DNA of 64,000 nucleotides from assembly GCA_022496805.1 (NCBI GenBank), contig CM040087.1:29908253-29972252 (forward strand). The letters run 5' to 3'. Both the position numbers and the translations under genes were made by a program. The notes below the pieces were generated by a model. The model worked only from the letters and a program-made list of their open reading frames with translations. It was not told the origin of the DNA and ran no database searches. Shown one piece after another: positions 4,284 through 56,006 of this stretch (its first letter is position 1; each line of letters begins with the position of its first letter). Origin of the DNA: Pohlia nutans (lineage: Eukaryota > Streptophyta > Bryopsida > Bryales > Mniaceae).

Positions 4284-5895
4284 CCATTTAATTATACAGG
4301 CATTGTGATCGAAGGGCTTCTACAATTAATGGTCTCTTCATTCACAATTAATGGTTTTTGGATCCATGTTACAATTATTATTAATTTTTGATGCATATCA
4401 AACTTTTACAACCTGGTTTCATAGTCATATGTCATAACATTCAATAGCCTTCAAGAAGGATGCCTTTTAGTTTCATCCACCTTCACCTTTATAGATGGAG
4501 TGACCAGTGATATGTAATTGAATGGGCTATCAAACCAAATGAACAATTACAGGACACTATTGAATTATGACTGAGTGAGTGCTTTCGATTACTAAGGTAG
4601 TAAGACCTTAAACTGCCAACTACCCATTCCTGCCTCCTATAATTTCACTCAAAGTGATTGGGAGTGTACCTAATATGGACCACAACTTCACTAAAACTTC
4701 ACGAGAACCAATGAGATGGAACCAATGAGATGAAAGCATTGACAAGTTTTGTCCATGTGTTCCTTCTGTTTCTTTTGGGTAAGTCTACAATTTTGATTAG
4801 GTGTCTACAAAACCTTCACTTCAAAAATTCGTGTAAAATTGCTCATGCGTCCAAAAATTTTGATTCCAAGACCCAACACTTCGTCTCCAATTTGCTAACA
4901 CATTCATGGTTTCACTTCATGCTTTTTGCACTCCCCGGTTACCAATTCCCTTATTCTGTCGGTTTAAGGTGTTACTACCTTATTCACCATAGTTAGTTGC
5001 TCTTGTTTAATGCCACCTGCCCCATAGCTATTAATATGATGTGAAATATTCCACGTCATTATGTTGAGAGGAGGGCAGCAGTCATAGAGAGGCTACTGAA
5101 TGTTATGGTACCCATTCTACCCAACATAATTGAGTATCACGCCATGAAATTTGAAGGGTTTTCTTTTATTATATTTTAATGGGCACGGGGCTCAGAGCTG
5201 GAGCATGATATCTACCATACAATTTGAACTTGGGCAATTTCAAGTGAAACTTCAACCAATGTTTTCAACTTGACGGAAATCGATTTAGATTCTGCTTGTA
5301 CAATTTGTCAAGCAGGGCACATAGTGATAACAAAGAGGTCGTACTCAGGGTTTTTTGTTTTTGTTTTTGGAGAAATGCTCAAGTGGCGGCATTAAATAAA
5401 ATGGTGGAGTCAAATAATATTTTTATTTTCATCAATATTTTGGATAGAGCTATTTTTTCATCCACATGGTTGGATGAATTTCATTAAAATTGGCAATTTC
5501 GTCCAATCTATTTTTACGAATTGGAACAATCTGAGATCTTCATCCATTTTTTCTTCAAAAAATTTTCTTAAGGCTTCATGCACACCAATTAATTTTAGTG
5601 CATTTTGGCATTTAAATGCCTAAAACAAATCATCGGGTCATAGTCTAAGAAAGGGCATGCCCCCACATAATTAGACCTTCTTAGAAACTGCCCAAGTTTG
5701 AAACTTTTTGAAATGGCCCAAAATACAAATTCGTCTTAACTTTTGGTAAAATAGATACGGTTAAAATGTATTTGGAGATCTAGATACTAGCTCATTGTGT
5801 CCAAAAATTCATATGCATAGCTCATTGTATGCAAACTCTAAAGAATTGTCCACACTTAGGTTTATCACCTTTACATGATTGTATCTTTTGATCTA
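4284..5895. other. AT-rich intergenic DNA
   Basis: No gene, RNA or recognisable element. Open stretches at 4730-4996 and 5296-5487 have no domain or splice context and look like chance. Confidence 0.5.
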
Positions 5896-6471
5896 TTAAC
5901 CCCTAACTGCCCAACCATGCATATTTTGCTTGATGTACAGATTTCATCCGCAGTTTCTCATCCGTCATGCACTTTTTGTAGTGTGATTTTTTACTGAATT
6001 TTTTATCGGAAGTTAGCTTCATGTATGTGTGATCCGATTGAAAAGGAAACAATTCCTGAAAAATTTATGCCTCATTTTGTGTTGCAGTGTTTCACCCAAA
6101 ATTTTGAAGATTTTAGTCTAAAAGTGTTCTTGAAAAAATAAACTCATAAAATCAAGCATCCAAAAAATCTCCAAAAATCACTACACCTAGAGTACTACAT
6201 TATAAGCCATCACAACAAATTTCATCCCCATAATGTCAATATCTTATTCGTAATCGAATTACAAAATAATTTTTTATTTTATGTTTCAAAATTTATAGAA
6301 AAATATTAGTGATAGCAATCAAAGATCTAACCGTATAGATTGAATCTAAATTTCAAGATGTGTAACTTTTATTCATACATCAAGTTTCAAATTTTCATGT
6401 TAGTTGCATTTTATGATGCATCTTTGCAAAACTGCCCAAATTGGACATAGGTGAGGACGTTTAGGCGTTAA
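5896..6471 (+). mobile_element. TTAA MITE, family B, complete copy
   Basis: 576 bp bounded by TTAA on both sides. It begins CCCCTAACTGCCCAACCATG and ends ...GAGGACGTTTAGGCG. Other copies: 3649-4122, 28076-28939, 43400-43976, 47426-48110 and 57119-57442. Non-coding. Confidence 0.8.
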
Positions 6472-8652
6472 CATCAGCTACGCATGCAAATTACCATCCC
6501 ATCTTGATTACAAAGAGTAGAGTCACTACAACAATTCTCAAAAATTCAGAACCAAAACCCTTTCCACACTGAGTTGACAGACTTGAAAAATCAGTCTTGG
6601 ATCTTTAGCCTTGAATCTTTAGGAGTTAATCAATATCTATCTTATTGGTTTGATATAGTACCAATGTTGTTTCTATGGCAATTGTCGCATTGATTATACA
6701 TTACCCAAGAATTGTTATTTTTCTTTTCACAATGAAAATAAGCTTTAACCCAATAAGAAGGCCAAAACCCAAAAATAATCTTTGGACGACATTTTGCTTG
6801 CTTTTGGATGATATATGTTCACTATTGTTGCTTGAATAGCAAGGTGATAGGCCCATTCTCTTAGAGTTAAGGCAGAGAATACTAAAATCTTCAAGGACAT
6901 GATTCCAACTCTTGTACCAACATCTCGTATATTCATACACTTAGTCAAACATATTATCAAGAGATGTAAGCATGACTTGGCTAAACATTTGCGTTTGAAA
7001 ATGAGGTTGACTGCCGGTATTAAATCTTCAATAGTATTTTACAACCTCTCACTTTGAAAATTCACAAGAACTTCATATGTAGTGAGTAGTGACAAAATTT
7101 TGATCTCAACAAATTTGCCATCGTACCAAAATTGGTCCCTCCACAACACTATATTCCTTTGTCCCACCAAAAAGTTGTGATTTCATTGAAACTTTGGGAT
7201 TAACCTTTAAGCGTTCCTAGCTATTTTGGACTTAAAATCATCATTGCTTTTGATGTGTTATAGGTCTAAATGTAAGTGAGGTATAGAAATTTCAACCGTA
7301 CAATCTTGTAACATACATGTTGCAGATCATGTGGATCAAATTTGAAGTCATTCGGCCATATAGATTGCAAGATCATAGTGTTTTAATGTTAAAAAAGGAT
7401 GCTCAAATTTGCAACACAGTTAGAGATGAATTTTGTTTTCAAAATTACTCAAATGAAAAAACTTTGAACTATAAAGTTGTTTAAAATCATCATATAAACA
7501 CATTGGTTCCAAAAACGCCTCATGAAAAGAATTTAATGTGCCCTAAAATGGCCTTGCAATGTCAAAAAGTAGCCCAATAGGTGACCAATTTGATCCAAAA
7601 AGCAAAAAGTGTCCAAACTAGACGCGTGCACTAAAATGACTCCCAAACATTCAGAATAACATGAATTGACATGAAAATTTACCATGATAACTAGACTGCA
7701 AGGGGAATCCAATCTAACAATGTTTATCAAAAAACGGACATGGGATGAAGGAGATACAAGCCCCCGAAGTTGCAGCCATCAAAATGCACAAAAACTATCC
7801 AAAAAAATGATACCTACTTCCAAATGATCACCAAAAATTCAATACATCTTAAATTGATATGAAATTTTTACCACACATTAGAGTTATCCGCCAAGTGTTC
7901 TACAGTTGGGTGACTGGACCGCAGATTTTGAAAAGAGAGGTTGAGAAAACAATAAAAGTAGACATGTCAGATGCTGTAAATAAACTAGAGGTCTGAAGTT
8001 TGAAGGCACCAAAAACGGTGCCTAAAAACTTTCCAACCTCAGTTTCTATTCTCGTAGATGCTCTGTCACATGGGCTTCCTTGGCTTGACACGTATCTACA
8101 TGGAGTGGGTCTTTGGAGTGGGTCTATTCACTGAAATAGAAAAACCAGTAACTGAGAGCCCCTAACAGCCCCTGACAGCCCACCACGGGCCAATTTTCGT
8201 ATACTCAAGAAATTGCCAAAGTAAGGCTCTGAAAGCCGATGAGTTTGCGGAAAACTCTATTCCATACATCATTTGGTTTATTTTTCTAGAATTTCATTAA
8301 AATCGAACACTATTTGCAAAAGTCACAGCTTTTTGAAGGTAAATGTATCCCAAAACACGTCCAAAATATGGACGTCGGGACTGTTAAGGGTTAAGCCCCC
8401 ACATCGCATGAGAGGGCAATTGGTGCGGCGTCAAAATCAAAGCTCTTCACAGTGCAAAAGCACCCTTGAAATTTCTAGAGTTAATGTTGCATGCCCAACC
8501 CTAAAATACTTAGCAGAAAAGAATGTCATTTCATAGTCATCTCAGATTGCTACAAATAGCCTTCATACAACTGATATAAGCATTTTTGGTTCGAATATAA
8601 TGGAAGACTTGGCTTTGGTGCTTGCTCACAATTTTGTGATGCATACTTGAGG
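6472..8652. other. AT-rich intergenic DNA
   Basis: No gene is supported. TTAACCTTTAAGCG near 7200 and CTTAAGGGTTAA-like sequence near 8385 could be the two ends of a very degenerate TTAA element, but the match is weak. The stretch 6960-7130 is related to parts of 39380-39790 and 40200-40370, an unclassified dispersed repeat. Confidence 0.35.
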
Positions 8653-8717
8653 TGGTGCATGAATTCAAAGATTGTCAATCATGCACGCTGAAATCAGTTT
8701 GAATCTGTGATCCGGGT
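8653..8717 (+). repeat. 65-bp target-site duplication, left copy
   Basis: Identical by eye to 13562-13626, at the two edges of the LINE. It starts TGGTGCATGAATTC and ends GATCCGGGT. Confidence 0.9.
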
Positions 8718-9624
8718 ACTCATAGCAACACTAGAAGATGCAAAATTTACAAATAAAGACATATATCTACTATATATAGACTTCAAAAACGCATTTGGCT
8801 CATTAGATCACGCAAGACTCCTAACTATAATGAAAGACCTTGGATACCCGGCAGATGCAATAATGCTAGTCGGAAACATCTACTCCCACTCAAACACTAT
8901 ATTTACTGGAGAACACTTTGGAAAAACAAAACCAATACCGATTCAAAGAGGAACCATACAAGGAGACACACTTAGCCCATATCTCTTTTTAATTTTTCTA
9001 GAACCACTCTTGAGGTGGTTACAAAGAGGAGAAAATGGATATACATTTGGTACATCAAAAATTAAAATCAGCTCCGCAGCATACGCGGACGATCTAGCAG
9101 CTCTATCAAACAATACAAAATCACTACAAATACAATTAAACAAAATTGACAAATTCTGTAATTGGGCAGGCATGGACTTGGGAGTCACAAAATGTGCCGT
9201 CACCGGTTGCCCAAATAAATCTAAAATGCCGCCAAACAAATTCAAAACCCACATGACAAACCAAAAAATCAGTTACAGAGACCAACCACTACCAGTACTC
9301 CATCAAAATGAACCTTATGTCTACTTGGGCATACAATTAGTTCCATCACTAAAATGGAAACTCCAAACACATATCACCACTACTAAAATATTAGACCAAT
9401 GTAAACAACTATCAAAATGTCCTGCCACTACCAAACAAAGCATTAGTACGGTGGACACAGTAATCAGAGCAGGCATAGCCTACAGCTTCTTTGCAGTCCC
9501 ATATTCACTACCAATCATTAAAAAACTTGACAAGAAAATTATTGCAATCCAAAAAACAATATGCGGACTACCTAAAAGCACTGCAAACATAATAACACAA
9601 CTACCCATCATTTATTTGGATTAG
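8718..9624 (+). pseudogene. LINE reverse transcriptase fragment
   Basis: The reading frame enters from the duplicated target and carries recognisable reverse transcriptase blocks: IDFKNAFGSLDH (motif A, catalytic Asp), RGTIQGDTLSPYLF (motif B region) and AAYADDLAAL (motif C, with the two catalytic Asp). Fingers upstream of motif A are missing because the element is 5'-truncated. The frame stops at 9622-9624 after a one-base change near 9612. The homologous protein continues in another frame (FGLEAFSLKNAY...), so this is a dead copy. Role in an intact element: copying the LINE RNA into DNA at the nicked target. Confidence 0.9.
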
Positions 9625-11323: not shown

Positions 11324-12616
11324 AACGAACCACTTGCAATGCACATATGGTGTATTCACCATCAAAACAATAACATTGGCACAACAAACCAAATAAACAC
11401 CATAAACACAACAATTGAAAATCTACAAATTTCGCAATACCATACACAAACAGCACCACCCACACCACCAAACACAAAAGTTAACAAAAGCACAAAATGG
11501 AACAAACTCATATACCCGCCCTATAACAATCTACAAAACATGTGGGTAAATCCCCTTCCAAATTTCGAAATAAACACTACACTAAAATTCCTACCACAAT
11601 ACAGCTATTACACAGATGGATCCTTTTTACCACCTAAAGAAGCTGATGATGGCCATTGGAAGAAAGAAAAAGCCGGATATGGAATCTACAACTCATCTAA
11701 ACCAGACGTACAAATATCAAAAGAACTGCCTGGACTACAAACATGCTTCAGAGCAGAACTAATGGTAATACATGAAACACTTTCACTACTCACCACTAAG
11801 TACATAAACGAACCTGCACATATTTTTACTGATTACCTCAATTGTATACATGTTCTAAGCACACAACTAAAACACCCAACCCAACAAAACAACCACGCCG
11901 ATAAAACCATATTAGAAGAAATGCTAAAAATGCTAAAAAAGCGAACACAACTAACCACAATATACAAAATTAAAGCACATGCTAAAATTAACGGAAATGA
12001 ACACGCAAATCAACTCGCCAAAGAAGGAACCATGAAAAGAGGTTATCAATTTGCATCAAATCCACACGAATTTGCACACACCACACCTTACTACTTCCAA
12101 AAAGACACATGGCCCGGTCGTATCAAACGGCCAGACAAAGGACTAGTTAGATGTCTGGAAGAATACATAAAGAAACACAACCGAGAAACTAACGTAGAAA
12201 TACTGGCAGAAGACTTTCCCAACATTAACAAATGGACAACAAACTCCATCATAGATAACAAAATGTCCAATGACTTTTGGAATAATCCAGCAATAACAGA
12301 CTCACAAAAAACAAGCATACTAAAATTTAGAACCGGTCAATACATGGATAATGCCAGAAAACAATTAATTTTCGGCATACAAAGATTCCCCTCAAAAACA
12401 TGTCCCATATGTAATTCGCAAGATGCAGATACATGGCTACATGTACTTTTACTATGCAAACAACACCATATTCACGCACTAAGAACCAAAAGACACAATA
12501 AAGTCGTATGGGAATTAAGAAAATTAATACTATCCTCAAATAAATCAAGATGCTACACTCTCATGAATGCGGGCACATTCAACAATAATCCACAAGAAAA
12601 CACAGCTCCTCCATAG
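11324..12616 (+). pseudogene. LINE RNase H and zinc-finger region
   Basis: It is in the same frame as the preceding segment after the TGA at 11321. The RNase H signature is complete: YTDGSFLPP (first Asp, ~11610), CFRAELMVIHETL (Glu), HIFTDYLNC (Asp) and KAHAKINGNEHANQLAKEG (late His/Asp-type loop, here with NEH). It is followed by CPICNSQDADTWLHVLLLC, a C-x2-C...H-x4-C knuckle of the zf-RVT kind. RNase H removes RNA from the hybrid during integration. The catalytic residues look intact here even though the element is dead upstream. Confidence 0.85.
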
Positions 12617-16381: not shown

Positions 16382-17619
16382 TTAATAGAACGTATCATCA
16401 GCCATCTGAACAAAAGGAGTGCCACGATCAAACCGAGAGCGATACTCCAAGTCGTCATGCGAAAATCTGCCATAGCCAGCGCCGCGGGGCTCGGCGTAGC
16501 CTGATCGATACGCGCTGTCGATGTAAGGCGAGCTGTACGCGCGCGAGTACGAGGAATTGTAGCGCGGCGGGCTGGCGTAACGCGAGTACCCCGCCACAGG
16601 AGCGCGATACGCGCTGGTCTGGTAGCCCGGTGCACGGTAACCCGGCGCGCGTAACGCGCTCACCAGCGGCTTCGTACTCATCAATTGGCCCGTGGCCGGA
16701 GACCCCGAGTACTGCAGTGGCTGTGTGGCCATCCTCCAGAACTTGGACCGCTTCTTCACGCGCCTCACCTGCGAATCCCATTGACGACTTAAAAATTGAA
16801 ACTTGAATAATAAAAACCAATTTCTAGAGATTTACAACAAATACGTAACATTCTGTGGAGTTTTTGGCTGTAATACACACCAGTGATGGATACACTCATG
16901 TTTATTACTCCAATTCTTCTTACAGCAAGATGATTTTTCAAATAGCAAGTTGGTGATCGATATAACCAAAAAACAAATTTACTCACCCTGCGGAGCGCCT
17001 TCTCGGGATCCACGTCGCCCTGGATCGTGACGAGCTGGTGGTACTGGTCCAGCACCAGGTCGCGGACTCCTTCCAGATCCTCCAGCGACCTGCGCACTTT
17101 CTCCACGCATTTGTCGCAGCACATTGGCACGGACAGCACTAGCCCTTTCGGGTGCGTTTTGACGACGGTATTTACGTTGGGCATTACGTGTGTCTGCGTG
17201 TTGAGTGGCGCCATGAGCGCGCGCGTGCTGTACGCCGGGTCGACTAGCTCGCGCCGCGGGGGCGGCATCATGTGCGTTCGCCTCTGGTAGCCGTAAGGAT
17301 CCGAGTTCATGATGAACGTCGGCTCGCGCGGCCCATAAAACACCTGCACAGAATCAATCAGAGCTTCGTCAAACATCCACACACAAAACACACGCCCTGT
17401 TGCGGCACTTGCATTAGATTATTCTCCAACTCACCATTTACACTCAAAACGAGTCTGAGATGAGTTTCCACTCTTTCCAGTAAACTCTAGCCGTTTTTCC
17501 CAATGTTGTGGCTCCGGAGATTCTCACAAGGAAAGTCACCGAGAATCGAAATCAGAAAACAGTTAGCGTACCTCTTGTACACTGGGCAACGTGACGCGCT
17601 GCTCGTAGTAAGGATCCAT
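16382..17619 (-). CDS. Single heavy-metal-associated (HMA) domain protein
   Basis: Three exons, 17572-17619, 16987-17343 and 16382-16768, join in phase with GT-AG borders to give 263 residues. The HMA domain is at about residues 84-150, with the metal-binding loop VPMCCDKC (Cys92 and Cys95 in the M-x-C-x2-C pattern). It is followed by DPEKALRR/VRRVKKRSKFW, the ending typical of plant HMA/HIPP-like proteins. The N-terminal 80 residues are Pro/Arg-rich. The last ~110 residues are a Tyr/Arg/Ser/Ala low-complexity tail (APGYRAPGYQ, SSYSRAYSSP). No C-terminal CaaX box is present (it ends DDTFY), so unlike HIPPs it is not expected to be prenylated. The family carries or senses soft metals such as copper or zinc in the cytosol. 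GC content is much higher than the flanks. The start is the first ATG, 48 coding bases before the first intron. Confidence 0.88.
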
Positions 17620-30470: not shown

Positions 30471-33400
30471 TTATTGGAAGGGGTGGAAATGATGTGTCAG
30501 CTCCTCAGGACGGCATCGCTGGCCGGCCGGCAGAGCAAACTTAAGCACTGCTTCTTTGACCATCTTGTTGGACACTTGCGGATGCAGGATGTGCCCCAGC
30601 AGCTCCACACCCTCCACAAGCCTTGGCCCTGGAAAGCTGAAGCACGAGTGATCGCATATGTAGACTTCCCTCCTCTCCACTGCAGGTATGGACCAAAAGT
30701 CGGGAATGCGGCCGAGAATCTCCATCTGCACAAGTTTATATATGTGACTCAGTAACAAGCGGCTAGTCGCAAAGTCTCTGCCTTAGTATTTACCCCAAAT
30801 TTATTTTTACAGCTTCTTTTTACTGTTTGGGCACGTAACTCCTGGTAACTCCTCAAAAACGAAGCGTTTCCGTAGTCTCTCCCCTGGAAGGGCAGAGACA
30901 ATAAACTTTATATAGAATCAGAAGTTTATATATGTAAATAATCTCAGTCAGTAATGAATTGAGATTCAACCAGCACACATTTGTCATTTACATGGTCAAC
31001 ACAGACTCTGATGCTTGCAAGTTCAGGATTAAAATACCACACAAAACGAAAAAAATCCATTGCAAACAGATTTTACTTCTCCAGTAATCTCAAGCTAAAA
31101 TTAGAAAGTCCACTTTGAAAGCTATTAATCGATTATAGTAACTTCCAAAATATCTCTATCGTCGAAACAGTTGACGACATGATTTCTTCTTTCTATTGGT
31201 ACATTTTGTTACTTAACCCCTAAAGGAAAAAGGATTCACGGTTTCAAAATGACAAATTCAATCCATCATATTGTGAAAAATAGAATTCAGATGGAACAAG
31301 ATTTTATATCATCGGAATCCGTGAAGAATATTGTATGTGTTGGACAAGAAACAATTAATTTGAACAAGAGGAAAGTCCACATAGGACCTACTCAAAACTG
31401 CTAAGAAAAAACATGAGGCCCAATTGGGGCTTCTTCTTCCTTTAGGGGTTAATGATTAAAAACCATCGTGAATGTCTCCCAAGCAGTACTTCGTTTTACA
31501 AAGTGATCTGCCTGCTACGACTTGTTATGAATTTGAGGGAAAGGTTTGTTCCAAAATAGCAGCATATAAAACACTTTATCTGCATTGATTATAGGCTTTT
31601 CAGGTAAAGTGAGAGATCGTAGATGATATTCAGAAACAAGGAAAAATGTACCTCTGCCAAGCTCCGATCCAGGCTGGACCAGCGTGGGGCTAGAATGAGA
31701 ACTTCTGGAGCATAAGCTGTAAGGCGCTGAAAATGCAACGTTTCTGGCGGACACCCGGGTTTTTGCAGCCCTTCAGAACCCCCAGCCAGCGTCACCATTT
31801 CGAACGCCCAATGTCCTCCCAATTGTAGCGGATCCATGCCTTGAAGTAGCAGAACCCGAGGTCTGTCTTGAGTGGCTACTGAAGCCGCTACGCGCCGCAG
31901 CCGAGCTCGAAGTGAGTCAACAAGCAAGCATGCTTCAGAGTAGAGGCCTACAGCTTCTCCCAAAGTCATTATTGAAGCTAAAGTATCAGTTACCTGCATC
32001 GTCAACAAAACACAGTTACAATCCATGAGCTGCTGTTTTTTAACCCCTAGAGGACCAGGGATTCATGGTTTTGAAATGACAAATGCAATCGATTGTATTG
32101 TGAAAAACATAATTCAGATGGGACCAAATTTTATATCACTGGAATCAGTGAAGAAACATTGCATGTGTTGGTCAGAAAACAAATAAATTTGAACAAAAGG
32201 AAGTCCTCATGAGACCTACTCAAAACTGCTAAATAAAACATGAGGCTGAATTCAGGCTTCTTGGTCCTTTAGGGGTTAAAAACAGCTTCAAGAGCTGCAC
32301 CACCAGAAAGTATCCAGAATCCAGAAAACATGAAAATTGATGTGGTTTCCAGCAAAAAGGACGGCAAGCTTGTAAGGCACGGTTTGAGAGTAACGCTGCA
32401 TTGTGGTTACTTACCGTTTTAGGGCCGAGAGTGACCAATTTGGTGATGTTCTTGCTAACTACTCCAGCCTTCGCTATCATGGAAGTCAGCGAAGTGTCAT
32501 GCATATCGCATTGTTCACAAGTATCCTGGAGTCAAAACGGTACCGTCATTGTTAAACAGAATTGGTGCAGGCTGCATATTATATGAGGCCATGAAAGCAA
32601 GAGCTCGTCGTTAGAATGTTAGTGAATCAGGTCCATCAGCAATCCCTACCTGAGATATAATAAGATCAGGTTTCGCTTTACTCAACCATGATACATCCAA
32701 CCGGCAATAGCTCTCCTTCTTGGCTGCTAGAGCTTTCATCTGTAAGAAAAAAAAATCTTGACAGTGAGCGAAAGACATATCATCTACTCCACCGCAGGAA
32801 CTAAAACAACTGATGAGACTTGTCCAAAATTAACAGGGCTTCGGGACTAAACAGAATCATAAATTCAACGAATTAAGTATGTGCTAAGATAGAAAGGACA
32901 AACTCTCATGAAAAACAAAGAAATTTTATATTTTCCCAAACGTTTTGTCACTAGGTTGATCTGGCAAACTGGGATTCCGTTCCCTTAAAAACAAAAGTGA
33001 CACCTATGAAAGTACCCAACGGTTACCTGTGAACTTGAATATACACAATTCAGATACTCACCGCAAAGTCCACGTTCTTGCTAGACATAGAAGCGATATC
33101 CACTTTACTCGAACATACCTGATGAGGACGAGGAACGAAAACAAGGATTAAAATCAACAATAAACTGATCCAAAGAAGCATCACATGATTAATCACTTCT
33201 AAATGAATCCATGAAAGGTCTATAGCATGCAAAACTTACAACGTGTCGTTTTGTTTTGACCCCAGGCGGCCTATCACACATATCCGTTATTGCTATTAGT
33301 CGATCTCCTGCACCTGAAGCCACCAACCACAACCACATATGACATTCAACAGCAGCATACAACATTAATATAACTGTTTAACCAAGTACTCTTTCTCAAC

Positions 33401-36400
33401 AAATGCAAACAACACAAGAAAAAAAAACCAAAAAAACAAAAAAAACCTTCAGGTTGCTGCTGAACAGAGAAAGACGTGAGCTTACCAATCTCTATTAGAA
33501 TTTCTGTGGCGGAAGGCAGTAACGAAACTATCCGCTCTGGCAACCGTTTCCCATTGAGAGGTTTTCCATTCCTACTTGATAGTTGTTGTTGCCGACTATC
33601 TAATGAATACTTTTGACCATTGCGGGGCCTTTCTAAAGTTAGACGACTGCCAGTAGTATCTCTATCGCCAACTATTCTAGTGTCATCCTTGACGCCACGC
33701 ACTGCACTACTTGTTACGACTCTCATGGACGGTAACCCAGAGCTATTATTATAAGATACAGTTTCAGATTTACCCGTGTGACTAGAGGGCCTCATTCTGG
33801 TAGTGGTTTCAGGCTGAATATGATCTGAATATTCACTAAAACTATTACCTCTCTGGTGCCCACGGTGGTGTCCATTGCACTGACTCTCGCCAGCATTACC
33901 CCAGACTTCTGATTCAGACCTCACTAACCTGTGATTATTACTACCTCCCATATCAAAAGACTCGGACCGCCGGATTTGAGATGCTTGAGGCCCTTCAAAC
34001 ATAGCATCAGAAAAGGCTCTCGGAGATAAAGACCTCACTCTCTCAAACACCCGGGTATGGGAGCCCTCCTCTTGCGCAGCCAGCAGAACTCTCGATAATG
34101 GTTGAGACTTTCCTGGAGTATCAATCTCGGTTAGTGTGATACTAGAATGATAAGGCACGAGCTCCTGCGAATCTTCCCCCAGAGCTGCCGCTACCGCGGC
34201 CGCAGCCGCTGCCCCTGCGGCAGCCGCAGCTACCGGCCCGGCACCCGCCACAGCTGACGCTGACGCAGCCGCAACAGCAGCTGCTTTCGTGGTATTTGTT
34301 CTGCAACAACGAGAGAATGAGCTTTCAGTAACCATCCAAAGCATAATTACTATCCAATATCTTGTAAGGCCAAAACACAAGGAAAGCAGGGGCGTTTACT
34401 GTGTAGTAAAATGATCAATTTTCTATGTGTTAATGTAGTAAAATGATTGATTTACATGCTCCATACGGTAAAACATGCTATAAAGAGGGTACTTTTACGA
34501 CATAGTTAACCCCTAAAGGACCAAGAAGCCCGAATTGAACCTCGTGTTTTTTTTAGCATTTTTGAGTAAGAATATGGAGTTCCTTTTGTTCAGAATTATT
34601 GTTTCTGGACCAACACATATAATGATTGTTCTTCACTGATTCCAGTGATATGAAAATTTGGTCCAATCTTAATTATATATTACACAATATGATCAATTGA
34701 ATTTGTCATTTTAAAACCATGAATCCTTGGTCCTTTAGGGGTTAAAAGTCCCTATTGACCTTGTGAAATACTTCAACATGATGCAAGCAACGATTTGAAT
34801 CATTGTCATGCGTCACAAACATAAGTTCAAGATCACACTTTGTATTTGACAAAAAGGTCTTTCAAATGTAACAATAAATACGATACACCATATTTTTGTC
34901 AATTTCAGATTTTAATAAACGAACTAAAAGATGTGCGAGGAGCGCCTAGAATTTGAGAATAACGATGACAATGTTACCTGCAGCACTCCACAAAAGCAGG
35001 TGCAACGGTGGGATTGCTGCCAAAATGTAGGTGTACAAAGCTCGCCATGGCATTTCCCTGCATGAAACCTTCGAGTTCTTCTCGTGCTTCGTCATAATCA
35101 ATTTTCATCGTCAACCTGGTCATTGTTCACCAACGTCAAGAACGACCTAGACAACATGTGGAAGTTCGAGAAGATCATTCAACAGAATCATACCCACTTT
35201 GAAAGCTAATAGTCGGTTATAGCACCTTCCAAAACATATTTGAATCATTTTAAAATGTAGGGAATGATTTCTTCTTTCTATTGGTACATTTTGTTGCCTT
35301 CTTAAATGATTCATTGTTATGGAAGCGGGCACTTTAACCATTTGGGCACTTAGAGGTTAACTAGTTCAAATTCACCAATTTCATAATCCTGGCATAGCAG
35401 TGCCAGAGAGAATTGACTCACCCTCTAGGGCAATCAGTGACGTGGTTGCCTGGAGGGTAAAAGATCTCACTGGAGTGGTAAACTTGTCCTCGAATTTCAC
35501 CGACGATTGCTGGAAAGAGTACACAGTCGTTCCGAGGTGTCACCTGCCACCACCCATGATGTAATTGAGTTAACCAAAAAGAAGCCCATCTAACCTCCCT
35601 TTTGGCTCTACTTCTAACCTCTTTTTTGAGCTATACTTGGGTTGAATAGGGTCGTGTCATAGATTGTCCCCTTGTGGGCCATGGGCTTGGAGCTTTGGTA
35701 GAAGGTGTGGGAGTCATTGCGAGGTGTGAAGAATAATGACAATGGCTTGTTTTAGATTGTCTCCCAACTCATCATGAACTAGTTTTTGGTCTATTTATAT
35801 TTCAATATGAATTCAACACGAGTTTGCTAAAACTTTCCTCTTTGAGCTGACTTTTCAGTTAACTCTATTGTCTATGAAAAAGGGATGTCCCAACGGATCT
35901 TTGAAAAACGAATGGAGAGACTAACAATATGAACGAAGGACGTAATATGAACAAAAAGTAGGAGTGTTCTTAACCACCTAGAGAGGGTTAGCGTTCTGGC
36001 GCAGTATCTATGCAAAAGAACCATGACTTTGAAAACACAGTTTTTGCAGCATTACAATAAAAACAGAGGGCAGTAGAAAACCTTCGCAATCATGACTATC
36101 ACACAACTATTCATTATAGGACATCAACAGCTAAACATACATGAAAAAACTTGACTCACCTTCACATAGCCTTCATGCTTGACTGGTTGAGTGCGGGTGG
36201 CAAATGGAAATACCCCACACATTGGAAAAACCTCCTCATCGGAGCCCTGCTTGTCAGCACCAAACCAATAAGAACCTAACAAACTCATAAATGAACAAAC
36301 TACCCGAGGATGAAAACGAAACAGCTACATGGGACAACAAAGCGCTGTCCCAAATAATGCGAGGTAACAGCAAATTCCATGCAGTTAATATTGTGAAAAG

Positions 36401-39400
36401 AAAGATACCTCAATGCCTTGGGACAAATACATCAGGCCTCCACACTCGCCATAAACAATGCCCCCCGCAAGAGCAAAAGCCCGGACAGCATATAGCATTG
36501 GTTTGTTGGCTGACAATTGCTCTGCGTGGATTTCTGGATGGCCCCCACCAAAGATGATTGCATCCAACCTGGGTGGAAGCAAATCCCTCAAGGGAGAAAA
36601 GAACACCAGTTCCGCTCCAGATTCTGCACATAATCACATTCTTAAGATGATAGAATAATACAAACTACTGTAGTAGTAGATTTCTGTGACATAGTGGTAT
36701 AAGAACTGCACAAGATTTATCCCTTAACCCTTAAAGGGCTGATGGGGATAGTAGATACATTGGCGTATATTTGACATTTGTTGTAAATAGAAAGATCCAA
36801 ATTGAGACCCCAATAGCTCATTCAAATTATGTCGACGTGAATTTTAACTTCACTTTTGACCTTAAACCAATAGGAGGTGTGGAACCATGCCAAATACAAT
36901 AGAATATTGATGTATAATACTGGTTTAGGGTGGGGCTCTCTAGACCTTTAAGGGTTAAAGGACTAAGGATTCATAGTTTTAAAATGACAATTTCAATTGA
37001 TCATATTGTGAAATATATGATTCAGGTAGGACCAGATTTTATATCACTGGAATCAGTGAAGAACATTGCATGTGTTCATCAAAAGAGAAAGAAATTTGAA
37101 TAAAAGGAAGACCTGTTCAAAACTGCTATAAAAAACATGAGGTCCAATTTCGGCTTCTTGCTCCTTTAGGGGTTATAATAGGATCACACAAATGTGGCCT
37201 CTTGCAACGAGCAAGAAAATTTACTCAGCTTTTCTGATTGATCCAGTGATTCAAACTTTGTCCGTACCTTCCAGAAGATTCAGATTGGCCTGATAGTAAA
37301 AGCAGAAAACCTCATCTCGTGCAATTCCAATACGAACATGCTTCCCTGCCGGTGGGGACGTAGGACTTCGACAAGGAGAGGTGTCTTCGGTCCACTCAAT
37401 GCAGTTCAAGGGCTCACACACTGCAGCTGATTCTAAGACGGCATCCAAATCGATGTGTTGCTCTACCAAATCAGCAAGGCGCTGAATGTAATTCGACGAC
37501 CTGTCCTCGTCCTCGGGTGAATGTATGCCTAAGTGCCGTTGCGGAAGCTGAATATCAGCTGTCTTAGGTACACCCCCCAACACTTGAATGCCAGGTTCAG
37601 TTGTCAGGACTGCCTCTGTAAGCCACGCAGTATGGGCAGGACTCCCGACCTGGCAGAAACAAAAAAAACAGTTGATTTCAGTTAACACATAGCTCAGTTT
37701 TGAACACGGTAATGGAAAAAAACCATCTGCTTCTTAACCCTTAAAGGTCCAGAGAGCCCTTTCCGACCAGTATTATACAACAATATTCTATGGTATTTGG
37801 CAGGGTTCCACACCTCCTATCAAAAGTGAAGTTAAAATTCACGTAATATGATTTTAATGAGCTGTTGGGATCTCAATTTGAAACTTTCTATTTACAGCAA
37901 ATGTCAAATATACGCCAACATATCTACTATCCCAATCAGCCCTTTAAGGGTTAAAAATGCCCGCAGATGGGGATCATCAGTGAGTACAGGCAACCCTCTA
38001 TAAATGTTAACCTTCGGAGTAGGAATTTCTTAACATTTACAGTAGGTTAACACTTTAACAAATAGAGGAGGAGGACTTTCAAGAATTAACTCTTATAAAT
38101 TAACATTTCTTTATTATATTCTGAACTTCACATAGAATCAGCGTCGTGAGTTCTTAGGTATTTTGACCTTAACCCCTAATGCAGGCAGGAACCACAATGT
38201 GGTCTACATTATGTCTTCCTTCATTGCTGCATTTATACAAGAAATTCTTTCAAGCATTGTCGCCTCTGGAAAATTACGGAGATTTCACAACACACTCCCC
38301 TTAGGTCTTGCATGTTTAGGAAAAAAAATTGGCCTCATCCAACGTACTGGTGGACAATAATTGCGCAATGTATTTTTTTGTCCTCTATGTATACTGCCTG
38401 TATGAATAGGGCAACCTCTTTTAGGGGTTAACCAAGTGACGAGATGTTCACATACACTAATGTACAGAAGACTCTTCATTCTTTCAAAGGGTGCCACTTT
38501 TTTTATTGGATGTTGTAATTAGTGGTCACTATTGTATCCTAAAATCAGTTTAACATTTATGAAGGTCAAATTAAAAAAGAAGAGGGTATAAGGGAGTCAA
38601 ATTCTGTTAGCAATTAACGTCTAACATTTTCTAGTTAGCAATATTGGGAAGTACAAAAATGTTACTCCCTCCGTCCCAAAGTTATTGTCATGTTTGAAAG
38701 TCATGTTTGAAAGTGCTTTTTTAAGTAGGTCAAAAAAATACTTCTTTGTGGCTAATTTTATTTTGGTTGCAATGAACACATGCAATGTTCTTCAATCATT
38801 CTAGTGACATAATTTGGAACCTTTTTTAATCATGTTTCTTACAATATGATCAATGAAATTGGCTCAAAGAAATACCAAACAAATTTGTATGACAATAATT
38901 TTGGGACGGAGGGAGTAACAGATATAGTGAGTAAACGTCTATGGGTGTGACATTTATGGAGGTGTACCTTATTAAACACAACGCCTGCAAATTTAAGGGC
39001 AGGATCGAAAGTGGTGTAGCCCCGGATGATGGCTGCCGCACTGCGTGCCAGAGCCCAGCAATCCAGCACTAACAAAACAGGTGCAGACAGAAGCTTCGCC
39101 ATTTCAGCAGTGCTTCCCACATCCGATCGGCCATCTCGACCATCATACAGGCCCATGACTCCCTCCACAATTGCAACATCCGTGTCAGCCACCCGTGCCC
39201 TAAAACATGCCAGATTTACATCCCTGCGCAACACCCATCCAAATGAACATCATCGGGCTTTCTGTAACATCACAATTCACAATGCACTAATCAACAAAAG
39301 CTGTTGAGTAAAATAGAGGATACTGAGCCTGTTCCCACAGCAACTCATTAATTCACACATTTGGTTGGACTTCAAGTAGCAGCATGACTTGGCTAAATAT

Positions 39401-40911
39401 CTGTGGCCATCGATCTTTAACCCCTAAAGGACCAAGGATTCATGGTTTTAAAATGACAAGTTTAATCAATCGTATTGTGAAAATTATAATTTGAATGGGA
39501 TCAAATTTTATATCGCTAGAATTAGTGAAGAATATTACATATGTTGAATTAAAAATAAAATAAAAAATAACAAAAAAGAATCTACATAAAACCTACTCAA
39601 AATCGCTGAAAAAAACAGGAGCCACCTGGTGGCCTTATGGTCCTTTAGGGGTTCAGAGGAAATGCGGTTGTCTACTGTCATTTATAGTGATCTACATTCT
39701 CCCGCTTCGGAACTACATAAGAAACTCATTCATAGTGATAAATATTCGATCTCAACAAATTTGGCTCTTGTACCCAAAGTGATCTCAATAGTGATCTCCC
39801 AATGAAAGCACACTCCTACACATTGGCGTAAAAGCTTAAATAGAATCCTCTGCATGCCATGATGAAGAAGACAACATCCTTGGCTATTTCAGGTGCAGCA
39901 AGAAAAATGAGTATGGTAAAGGGACAGAAATGTACACCTGGTGGATTCACAAATTCAAGTAACCTGCCACTATCTGGTTACCTGCTCAGCATCCAGCCAT
40001 CGAGGTTGTACGAGTTGCGACCTGTCGCAGCACTGTGATGCATGGGATCCAAAAAATCTGCTTTTCCCCAATCCCAATGCAAGAAAAGGCTCTCAGCAAT
40101 GCATCTCGCTACTTCTCAGACACTTATAAAGTAAAAAACTTTAGGGACCTGATCCTGTCTCTTGTACTAATCCCTATTACCAACATCAACTCATCTATTC
40201 ATACCCTCCAATTAGCAAGTGGTAGTGTAAGCATAACTTGTCTAAATGTCTATGCCCACTCATCTTTGAATGCTAATGAAGTTATCCACTGTCCCTTCAA
40301 TAGTGGTCTACAACCTCTGATTGCACAAGAAATCATCATACACAGTGATAAAAATTTGACTTTGGCTCTTGAATGCAAAGCAAGATCTTTCCACCGTCCT
40401 ACATATTGGATAAGTTGCATAACCCCTAAAGGACCAAGGATTCATAGTTTTAAAATGACAAATTCAATTGATCATATTGTGAAAAATATAATTCAAATGG
40501 GACCAAATTTTACATCTCTAGAATTAGTGAAGAACAATGTATGTGTTGGTCAAAAAACAAACAAATTTGAACAAAAGGAAGTCCATGCAGAACCTACTGA
40601 AAACTACTAAAAATAACATGAGGTCCGATTTGGGCTTCTTGATCCTTTAGGGGTTAACGTTACGCAAACAGTATCCTATGATAAAATTGTAAAAACTATC
40701 TTATTGTAAGAGACAAAAGCTATTCAACATTTGCGTTTTGAAATACCTATATTTCACCCAATAAACGAGATATTGATACTAGAAACGCACCTGGTCCAAT
40801 CTTAAAAGGCTGGACGCGCAACCCTCGTCGGGTGTACGCAGCCATGAGTCCCACGGCAATGGAGGTCTTGCCAACCCCACTGCATGTTCCGGCCACCACA
40901 ATGGTCCTCAT
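30471..40911 (-). CDS. CbiA/CobB-type cobyrinic acid a,c-diamide synthase fused to a BtuF-like corrinoid-binding domain
   Basis: Fifteen exons join in phase with GT-AG borders: 40791-40911, 39982-40057, 38968-39223, 37268-37649, 36409-36623, 36160-36246, 35422-35543, 34978-35115, 33486-34300, 33240-33313, 33062-33118, 32650-32739, 32415-32525, 31652-31993, 30471-30725 (about 1046 residues). An in-frame TAG lies 12 bases before the ATG. Residues 1-465 are CbiA/CobB: P-loop [10 protein letters not shown] (8-17), FKIGP/DFLDP (36-45), [16 protein letters not shown] (86-94), then the class I amidotransferase part with nucleophile Cys339 ([10 protein letters not shown]) and the terminal VHLHF His. 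The family amidates the a and c side chains of cobyrinic acid using glutamine and ATP. The usual RGHEFH is RGQVYH here. Residues 466-720 are an Ala-rich then Ser/Arg-rich linker. Residues 721-1046 match the BtuF fold ([33 protein letters not shown]). No targeting or lipoprotein signal is visible, so it is probably cytosolic. TTAA MITEs sit in several introns. Confidence 0.9.
30773..30905. mobile_element. MITE with GTCTCTGCC ends, intron of the CbiA-BtuF gene
   Basis: Begins GTCTCTGCCTTAGTATTTA and ends GGGCAGAGACAATAAA. A related copy is at 50217-50350, sharing AACTCCTGGTAACTCC in the middle. Ends are inverted over about 8-12 bases. It lies in the last intron of the host gene. Confidence 0.6.
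31213..31452 (+). mobile_element. TTAA MITE, family A (intron 14 of the CbiA-BtuF gene)
   Basis: TTAA-CCCCTAAAGGAAAAAGGATT ... TTCCTTTAGGGG-TTAA, 240 bp, both TTAA intact. Confidence 0.85.
32040..32279 (+). mobile_element. TTAA MITE, family A (intron 13 of the CbiA-BtuF gene)
   Basis: TTAA-CCCCTAGAGGACCAGG ... TTGGTCCTTTAGGGG-TTAA, both ends intact, 240 bp. Confidence 0.85.
34506..34745 (-). mobile_element. TTAA MITE, family A (intron 8 of the CbiA-BtuF gene)
   Basis: TTAA-CCCCTAAAGGACCAAG on both ends (inverted), with the core reversed relative to the other intron copies. One of the best preserved copies. Confidence 0.87.
36724..36958 (+). mobile_element. TTAA MITE, family C (intron 4 of the CbiA-BtuF gene)
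   Basis: TTAA-CCCTTAAAGGGCTGATGG ... TAGACCTTTAAGGG-TTAA. The core is unlike A (GGCGTATATTTGACATTTG). A second, inverted copy is at 37734-37954 in the same intron region's neighbourhood. Confidence 0.8.
36955..37176 (+). mobile_element. TTAA MITE, family A, abutting family C
   Basis: It shares the TTAA at 36955-36958 with the C element and has the A core (TTCATAGTTTTAAAATGAC). The right end, CTCCTTTAGGGG-TTAT, is slightly decayed. The two elements are end to end. Confidence 0.78.
37734..37954 (-). mobile_element. TTAA MITE, family C (intron 3 of the CbiA-BtuF gene)
   Basis: TTAA-CCCTTAAAGGTCCAGAG ... CAGCCCTTTAAGGG-TTAA, in reverse orientation to 36724-36958. Confidence 0.8.
38169..38431. 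mobile_element. TTAA MITE, family D (intron 3 of the CbiA-BtuF gene)
   Basis: TTAA-CCCCTAATGCAGGCAGG ... GGGCAACCTCTTTTAGGGG-TTAA, 263 bp. The only copy in the window; its core is unrelated to the other families. Confidence 0.7.
38663..38917. mobile_element. Stowaway-like MITE carrying a family A core
   Basis: TA-CTCCCTCCGTCCCAAAGTTA ... TTTGGGACGGAGGGAG-TA: long inverted ends and a TA duplication, the standard plant Stowaway signature. The interior 38765-38870 (ACACATGCAATGTTCTTC, TCTAGTGACAT, ACAATATGATCAATGAAATT) is homologous to the reversed core of the TTAA family A elements. Lies in intron 3 of the CbiA-BtuF gene. Confidence 0.82.
39417..39654 (+). mobile_element. TTAA MITE, family A (intron 2 of the CbiA-BtuF gene)
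   Basis: TTAA-CCCCTAAAGGACCAAGG ... TATGGTCCTTTAGGGG-TTCA; the right TTAA has decayed. Confidence 0.82.
40419..40657 (+). mobile_element. TTAA MITE, family A (intron 1 of the CbiA-BtuF gene)
   Basis: ATAA-CCCCTAAAGGACCAAGG ... TTGATCCTTTAGGGG-TTAA. It gives a chance plus-strand open frame of 191 codons with flanking DNA, which is not a gene. Confidence 0.82.

Positions 40912-51092: not shown

Positions 51093-56006
<4,914 letters not shown>

Follow-up and report, generated by a model that had tools for sequence, protein, structure and literature searches.

A nuclear moss gene joining a CobB/CbiA-type amidase to a BtuF-like domain, and its possible role in tetrapyrrole amidation

What use could a moss have for a protein that resembles an enzyme of corrin synthesis tied to a B12-binding protein? 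The question is raised by a gene on the minus strand of a 64,000-nucleotide stretch of Pohlia nutans DNA (GenBank assembly GCA_022496805.1, contig CM040087.1, positions 29,908,253 to 29,972,252), referred to here as the window. Synthesis of the corrin ring is, to our knowledge, not attributed to eukaryotes. We favour, with moderate confidence, the reading that this fusion is a tethered tetrapyrrole a,c-diamide synthase; the direct observations beneath it are the intact domains and motifs, the single eukaryotic group in the tree of each half, and a bacterial operon in which both functions are linked.

The gene and its two halves

A sequence-only reading had proposed a 15-exon, 1046-residue nuclear gene encoding an intact protein with a CobB/CbiA half and a BtuF-fold half. 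This description is borne out: all exons were located and, joined at their splice sites, give 3141 bases and 1046 codons without an internal stop, 14 of 14 introns are GT-AG, the motifs that the reading quoted are present, and the Pfam domains score above their cut-offs. The features of the gene, in window positions, are as follows.

30471..40911, minus: whole coding region, ATG at 40911 to stop at 30471; 15 exons, 1046 residues
34980..40911, minus: CobB/CbiA half, residues 1-465, exons 1-8 (NF002204, PF07685, PF01656)
40911-40791, 40057-39982, 39223-38968, 37649-37268, minus: exons 1-4
36623-36409, 36246-36160, 35543-35422, 35115-34978, minus: exons 5-8
40861..40890, minus: P-loop, residues 8-17, within exon 1
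36409..36623, minus: exon 5, with the glutaminase nucleophile motif ECGGLMYL, residues 338-345
34174..34287, minus: conserved alanine-rich segment, residues 471-508, near the 5' part of exon 9
33547..34173, minus: variable linker, about residues 509-717, inside exon 9
30474..33546, minus: BtuF-like half, residues 718-1046, from the last part of exon 9 through exon 15
33313-33240, 33118-33062, 32739-32650, minus: exons 10-12
32525-32415, 31993-31652, 30725-30471, minus: exons 13-15
30471..30725, minus: exon 15, with the PGPRLVEG motif and a C-terminal tail containing HFHPF, a tail common to the nearest bacterial relatives

Residues 1-465 of the protein make up the CobB half, 466-717 the linker and 718-1046 the BtuF-like half; the P-loop lies at residue 8, EGVMGLYDG at 86, ECGGLMYL at 338, SFVHLHF at 445, QDTC..C at 811 and PGPRLVEG at 994. 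Its closest relatives are moss proteins, and a chance reading frame is excluded because the Physcomitrium protein is 82% identical across 96% of the length. The window lies 29.9 Mb into its contig, in an assembly of 697,796,988 bases and 332 contigs, and is therefore not a small contaminant contig. The linker is encoded together with the beginning of the BtuF domain in exon 9 itself, and P0042, a relative whose record name is of transcript-assembly style, runs from the last part of CobB through the linker into BtuF; both argue against two separate transcripts.

On the window protein, Pfam scores 104.2 bits for GATase_3 (cut-off 27) and 73.2 for CbiA (25.4), and NCBIfam gives full-length matches to NF002204 (462.3 bits, cut-off 254) and TIGR00379 (425.2, cut-off 261.4). 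As judged by these sequence families, the N-terminal half is a member of the CobB/CbiA-type a,c-diamide synthases; identity as CfbB was rejected, at 398.6 bits against a curated cut-off of 560, and a single-query PDB sequence search with the CobB half gave no match at 0.001. The P-loop and the glutaminase Cys and His motifs are intact in the window moss, where we take these residues to have their usual roles, the Cys of ECGGLMYL being presumably the glutaminase nucleophile.

The C-terminal half matches Peripla_BP_2 (PF01497) at 39.8 bits (cut-off 27.5), and sequence families together with a structure search assign it the binding-protein fold of BtuF and of heme binders; no BtuF model of NCBIfam matched the window protein at an E-value of 0.001. 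An identity as periplasmic BtuF is not supported. The domain is preceded by 717 residues in a protein that starts MRTIVVAGT, no signal peptide was seen on it by eye, and 12 of the 14 rows in an alignment of bacterial tail-sharing relatives begin at the first strand without a leader (P0095 and P0105 are extended). We infer a cytosolic location, and the half probably represents a cytosolic BtuF-like subfamily rather than periplasmic BtuF.

Between the halves, residues 466-510 are 98% identical to those of two other mosses, 82-86% to three liverworts (Marchantia 86%), 77-80% to two clubmosses and 77% to Chara; outside mosses the CobB half is 58-67% identical, the BtuF half 50-54% and the remaining linker 17-30%. 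By identity, a measure that its alanine-rich composition inflates, this segment surpasses every other part of the protein in conservation across land plants and Chara; it is not present in Spirogloea, Mesotaenium or Chlorokybus (12-21% identity). In the predicted structure of the Marchantia protein it forms two helices, with a predicted local distance difference test score of 87-90 over the block (73 at its end), followed by a disordered linker, and it is accordingly described here as a predicted helical hairpin. RNA structure was not supported as the cause of its conservation (z of -1.31 for the window sequence, with 19 of 200 shuffles equally good). Two Chara proteins, P0026 (CBR_g32417) and P0068 (CBR_g32415), are possibly the products of a single gene split by annotation; P0068 starts just upstream of the alanine segment, which in other species comes after CobB.

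Distribution, origin and bacterial relatives

The combination of halves is not peculiar to this host. A whole-protein database search, in which the 7989 candidates with the most words in common with the query were scored, returned 92 hits; by local alignment at 1e-8 the CobB half matched 91, the BtuF half 65 and both halves 64, many of them eukaryotic. That reading had also proposed a search for the same two-domain order and a tree of each half. The order is CobB-BtuF in 63 of the 64 two-half proteins, the exception being P0062, which is reversed and whose record code suggests Tetraselmis. Fusions occur in mosses, liverworts and clubmosses (named land-plant sources include Physcomitrium, Ceratodon, Marchantia, Riccia, Selaginella and Diphasiastrum), in green and streptophyte algae, and in dinoflagellates and oomycetes (named sources outside land plants include Myrmecia, Trebouxia, Chloropicon, Prorocentrum, Polarella, Achlya, Aphanomyces and Saprolegnia). 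Those of Spirogloea, Chlorokybus and Mesotaenium are named from record codes, and for the last of these the alignment of the BtuF half covers just 99 residues. Seed plants, ferns and Chlamydomonas are not among the named sources of the 92 hits, a list limited in length range and sensitivity and with some entries unnamed, which leaves absence unproven. The CobB half alone was matched in 27 hits, many of them of bacterial type and carrying different domains, PF00155 or PF02570 for example. The oomycete and dinoflagellate fusions P0028, P0030-P0032, P0035 and P0059 add Kelch repeats and PF17653.

The trees, which are unrooted and built from chosen rows with best hits as the prokaryotic sample, place the eukaryotic sequences together for both halves. 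For BtuF, 22 eukaryotic of 83 rows lie on one side of a branch (Shimodaira-Hasegawa-like approximate likelihood ratio test 99), and 20 of 59 are grouped in a more careful tree from which 24 rows were dropped (support 100/99); for CobB, 26 of 86 rows are grouped (100), as are 21 of 71 in a second tree (100; 24 of 95 rows dropped). Because the eukaryotic rows form one group in each half's tree, the sequences point to a single old fusion event shared by eukaryotes. With best-hit prokaryotic sampling and uninferred roots, the neighbours of these groups may shift under wider sampling.

The BtuF half is most closely related to bacterial proteins that have its C-terminal tail, namely L003/P0093 and a group from metagenome-assembled genomes (MAGs) of Chloroflexota (SAR202/Dehalococcoidia); with the eukaryotes these make up a 33-row group in the BtuF tree (100/100). 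In L003 (MAG F1-120-MAGs186) the tail-bearing BtuF gene (4851-5870) and cobB (5858-7219) overlap, with 13 bases in common, and cobB is followed by another Peripla_BP_2 gene (7245-8135). The BtuF-linked CobB copy may be specialised, since the same MAG has an additional CobB adjoining a VWA gene. Among 14 genomes examined from the 27 tail-bearing loci, 13 have a CobB over the cut-off; 8 of 12 Chloroflexota CobB from these genomes form a group with L003 CobB (98), apart from eukaryotic CobB. Because of this separation, the BtuF type appears tied to one CobB branch in bacteria and fused to another in eukaryotes, which we take as evidence, not proof, of a functional linkage. Descent of both halves from the L003/Chloroflexota lineage was not supported for CobB, whose eukaryotic group is placed elsewhere in its tree. 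Viral carriage was rejected: 17 pattern matches yielded one IMG/VR relative, by eye a fragment of a generic bacterial gene at the end of its locus.

The impression of the sequence-only reading that the combination looked undescribed stands in part. Neither the fusion nor its breadth, its operon counterpart in bacteria or the alanine hairpin was found described in literature searches, a weak negative given rankings that turned partly on unrelated terms and coverage outside which most subscription papers fall; automatic annotation, however, already names the halves in some species. Each half belongs to a known family.

What the protein may do

If the fusion is a tethered a,c-diamide synthase, the gene product would be a cytosolic two-domain enzyme whose CobB half would use ATP and glutamine to amidate two acetate carboxyls on a sirohydrochlorin-derived ring; the BtuF-like half would hold the same ring, tethered through the long flexible linker, and would hand it to the CobB half or store the product. 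Catalysis, ligand and hand-over are inferred for the fusion protein, and what the sequence predicts is a two-domain protein with the potential to bind a tetrapyrrole and amidate it. Known members of the amidase family work on cobyrinate, the F430 precursor (CfbB) and siroheme (DsrN) (PMC10504309). Dorrell et al. 2024 (PMC11439496) infer B12 metabolism for the land-plant ancestor, report it in hornworts, and find homologues of two B12 proteins, CblB and CblJ, persisting in liverworts and none of CBA1 in mosses; their main text does not contain CobB, BtuF or "cobyrin-". Given the known amidations of the family and the B12 loss inferred for mosses, a corrinoid or an (iron-)sirohydrochlorin is the likeliest substrate, the two being about even. 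A corrinoid/siroheme-type amidase that is conserved and, by prediction, apparently catalytic across algae and early land plants, and that persists in mosses reported to be without B12 metabolism, would mean hidden corrinoid chemistry or a new modified tetrapyrrole. Tentatively, and with less than even confidence, we suggest that from before land plants arose a dedicated tetrapyrrole amidation system of green plants, CobB tethered to a cytosolic ring-binding domain, may have acted on an undescribed ring (for instance a siroheme amide or corrinoid derivative), independently of known B12 enzymes, becoming inactive in clubmosses and lost in later lineages.

Several observations weigh against a working tethered synthase. 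Mosses and vascular plants are taken to have lost B12-dependent metabolism (PMC11439496), so that a corrinoid would lack a known user. No transit peptide was seen by eye on the window protein, whereas plastids are the site of siroheme synthesis. The annotated Physcomitrium and Ceratodon proteins (P0001 and P0002) begin at model residues 46 and 89, without the P-loop, possibly because their starts are mis-annotated. The window CobB half departs from bacteria in having QVYHSSEI for HEFHYSE and GGGHPE for GGGYPE; the glutaminase Cys is missing in 5 of 26 eukaryotic CobB rows (Selaginella, Diphasiastrum, P0007, Tetraselmis P0019 and P0048); the C..C motif, kept in 16 of 22 eukaryotic BtuF rows including the window moss, is absent in six (Marchantia, Diphasiastrum, P0007, P0042, P0043 and P0048); and the C-terminal tail is 83% identical to Physcomitrium and 63% to Ceratodon. 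Finally, the 27 tail-bearing bacterial loci, the closest kin, contain CobB in one case, BtuD-like genes in two and BtuC-like genes in none.

A salvage role, in which the protein would capture incompletely amidated or damaged microbial corrinoids and re-amidate them, a function left over from B12 metabolism in the ancestor of land plants, is possible but rather unlikely. The loci examined were the best 80 of 477 found, the 27 above and 53 more distant, many shortened by contig ends, and CobB lay inside the fetched DNA in 3 of the 80. The more distant loci include genes like BtuD (20), BtuC (19) and BtuB (12), with CobT in three and CobB in two, counts to which L052 and L062, the sources of the queries, themselves contribute and in which the BtuC and BtuD queries may match siderophore transporters too. 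Over cut-offs, the L052 cluster has CobB and CbiE, with CobC-like, TonB-receptor-like, BtuF-like, BtuC-like and BtuD-like genes under them; L062 has CobT over its cut-off, ABC-transporter and BtuB-like receptor genes under theirs, and CobB by tblastn only. The PF02570 and PF00155 fusions of bacterial CobB, these domains being of B12 type, and the ancestral metabolism with its liverwort remnants (PMC11439496) also favour salvage. Against it, the moss protein is conserved despite the loss inferred there and although CBA1 was not found in mosses, and the tail-bearing loci are nearly devoid of B12 neighbours. Nine recurrent neighbour representatives of the tail-bearing Chloroflexota genes, when scanned, showed no B12 family (they belong to MFS, flavin reductase, abhydrolase, gyrase, peptidase C26, OMP decarboxylase and aldolase families). 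Neighbourhoods indicate corrinoids for the more distant relatives only.

We also regard as unlikely, taken alone, a siroheme-type amidation, with sirohydrochlorin or siroheme as the substrate and, as for DsrN or CfbB, an amide of the ring as the product, here siroheme amide. The related amidases DsrN and CfbB give the idea its precedent (PMC10504309). Also in its favour, where a plant has no B12 the siroheme pathway is the chief internal source of rings bearing the required acetates, and heme binders share the fold of the BtuF-like half. Against it, we know of no siroheme amide in plants, the sequence scores above the CobB cut-off but below that of CfbB, no transit peptide is visible, and the neighbours of distant bacterial relatives indicate corrinoids.

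That the halves are kept as a non-catalytic sensor or scaffold, to bind a tetrapyrrole or to contact other proteins by way of the alanine hairpin, is quite doubtful. The five rows without the glutaminase Cys would fit it, as would an alanine segment better conserved in land plants than the enzyme, subject to its compositional inflation. The Cys motif is nevertheless intact in 21 of the 26 rows, namely the window moss, Marchantia and 19 others. Because the window moss keeps both this motif and C..C, while the two clubmosses lack the glutaminase Cys and Diphasiastrum also has GPDSINP for GPDFLDP, catalytic activity looks intact in the moss and decayed in the clubmosses. An artefact joining two neighbouring genes or a bacterial contaminant, to which the two annotated Chara gene models might lend colour, is very improbable and was rejected given the intron structure, the exon shared by linker and BtuF start, the fusions annotated in many independent genomes, the junction-spanning P0042 and the position of the window deep in a large assembly.

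Other features and comparison with known systems

Several further elements lie in the window.

40419-40657, 39417-39655, 34506-34745, 32040-32279, 31213-31452: examples of miniature-transposon-like repeats of about 240 bases with inverted ends TTAACCCCTAAAGGACCAA; several pairs are in introns of the fusion gene, and the end motif has 21 matches in the window at up to 3 mismatches against 0.05 expected
8692-9621 and 11324-12613, plus: remnants of retroelements, with frames for reverse transcriptase and RNase H
16792-17418, minus: frame with a heavy-metal-associated domain
52144-52839, plus: cullin frame

Among known systems, the CobB/CbiA cobyrinate or hydrogenobyrinate a,c-diamide synthases are alike in their full-length match over curated cut-offs, P-loop, catalytic motifs and GATase_3 domain, whereas the window gene is eukaryotic and nuclear and is fused to a binding domain. 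CfbB and DsrN share the amidase family and act on related rings (PMC10504309), the window protein falling below the CfbB cut-off. With BtuF and the periplasmic heme-binding proteins the C-terminal half shares the binding-protein fold and PF01497, but it has no visible signal peptide, appears to be of cytosolic type, and carries its own C..C and CDxP motifs and tail. Closest in arrangement is the BtuF1-CobB-BtuF2 cluster of L003, which likewise brings both functions together, in overlapping genes and with the tail VLKFALPAG...HFQPY; there, in contrast, the genes are separate, BtuF1 precedes CobB, and CobB comes from another branch.
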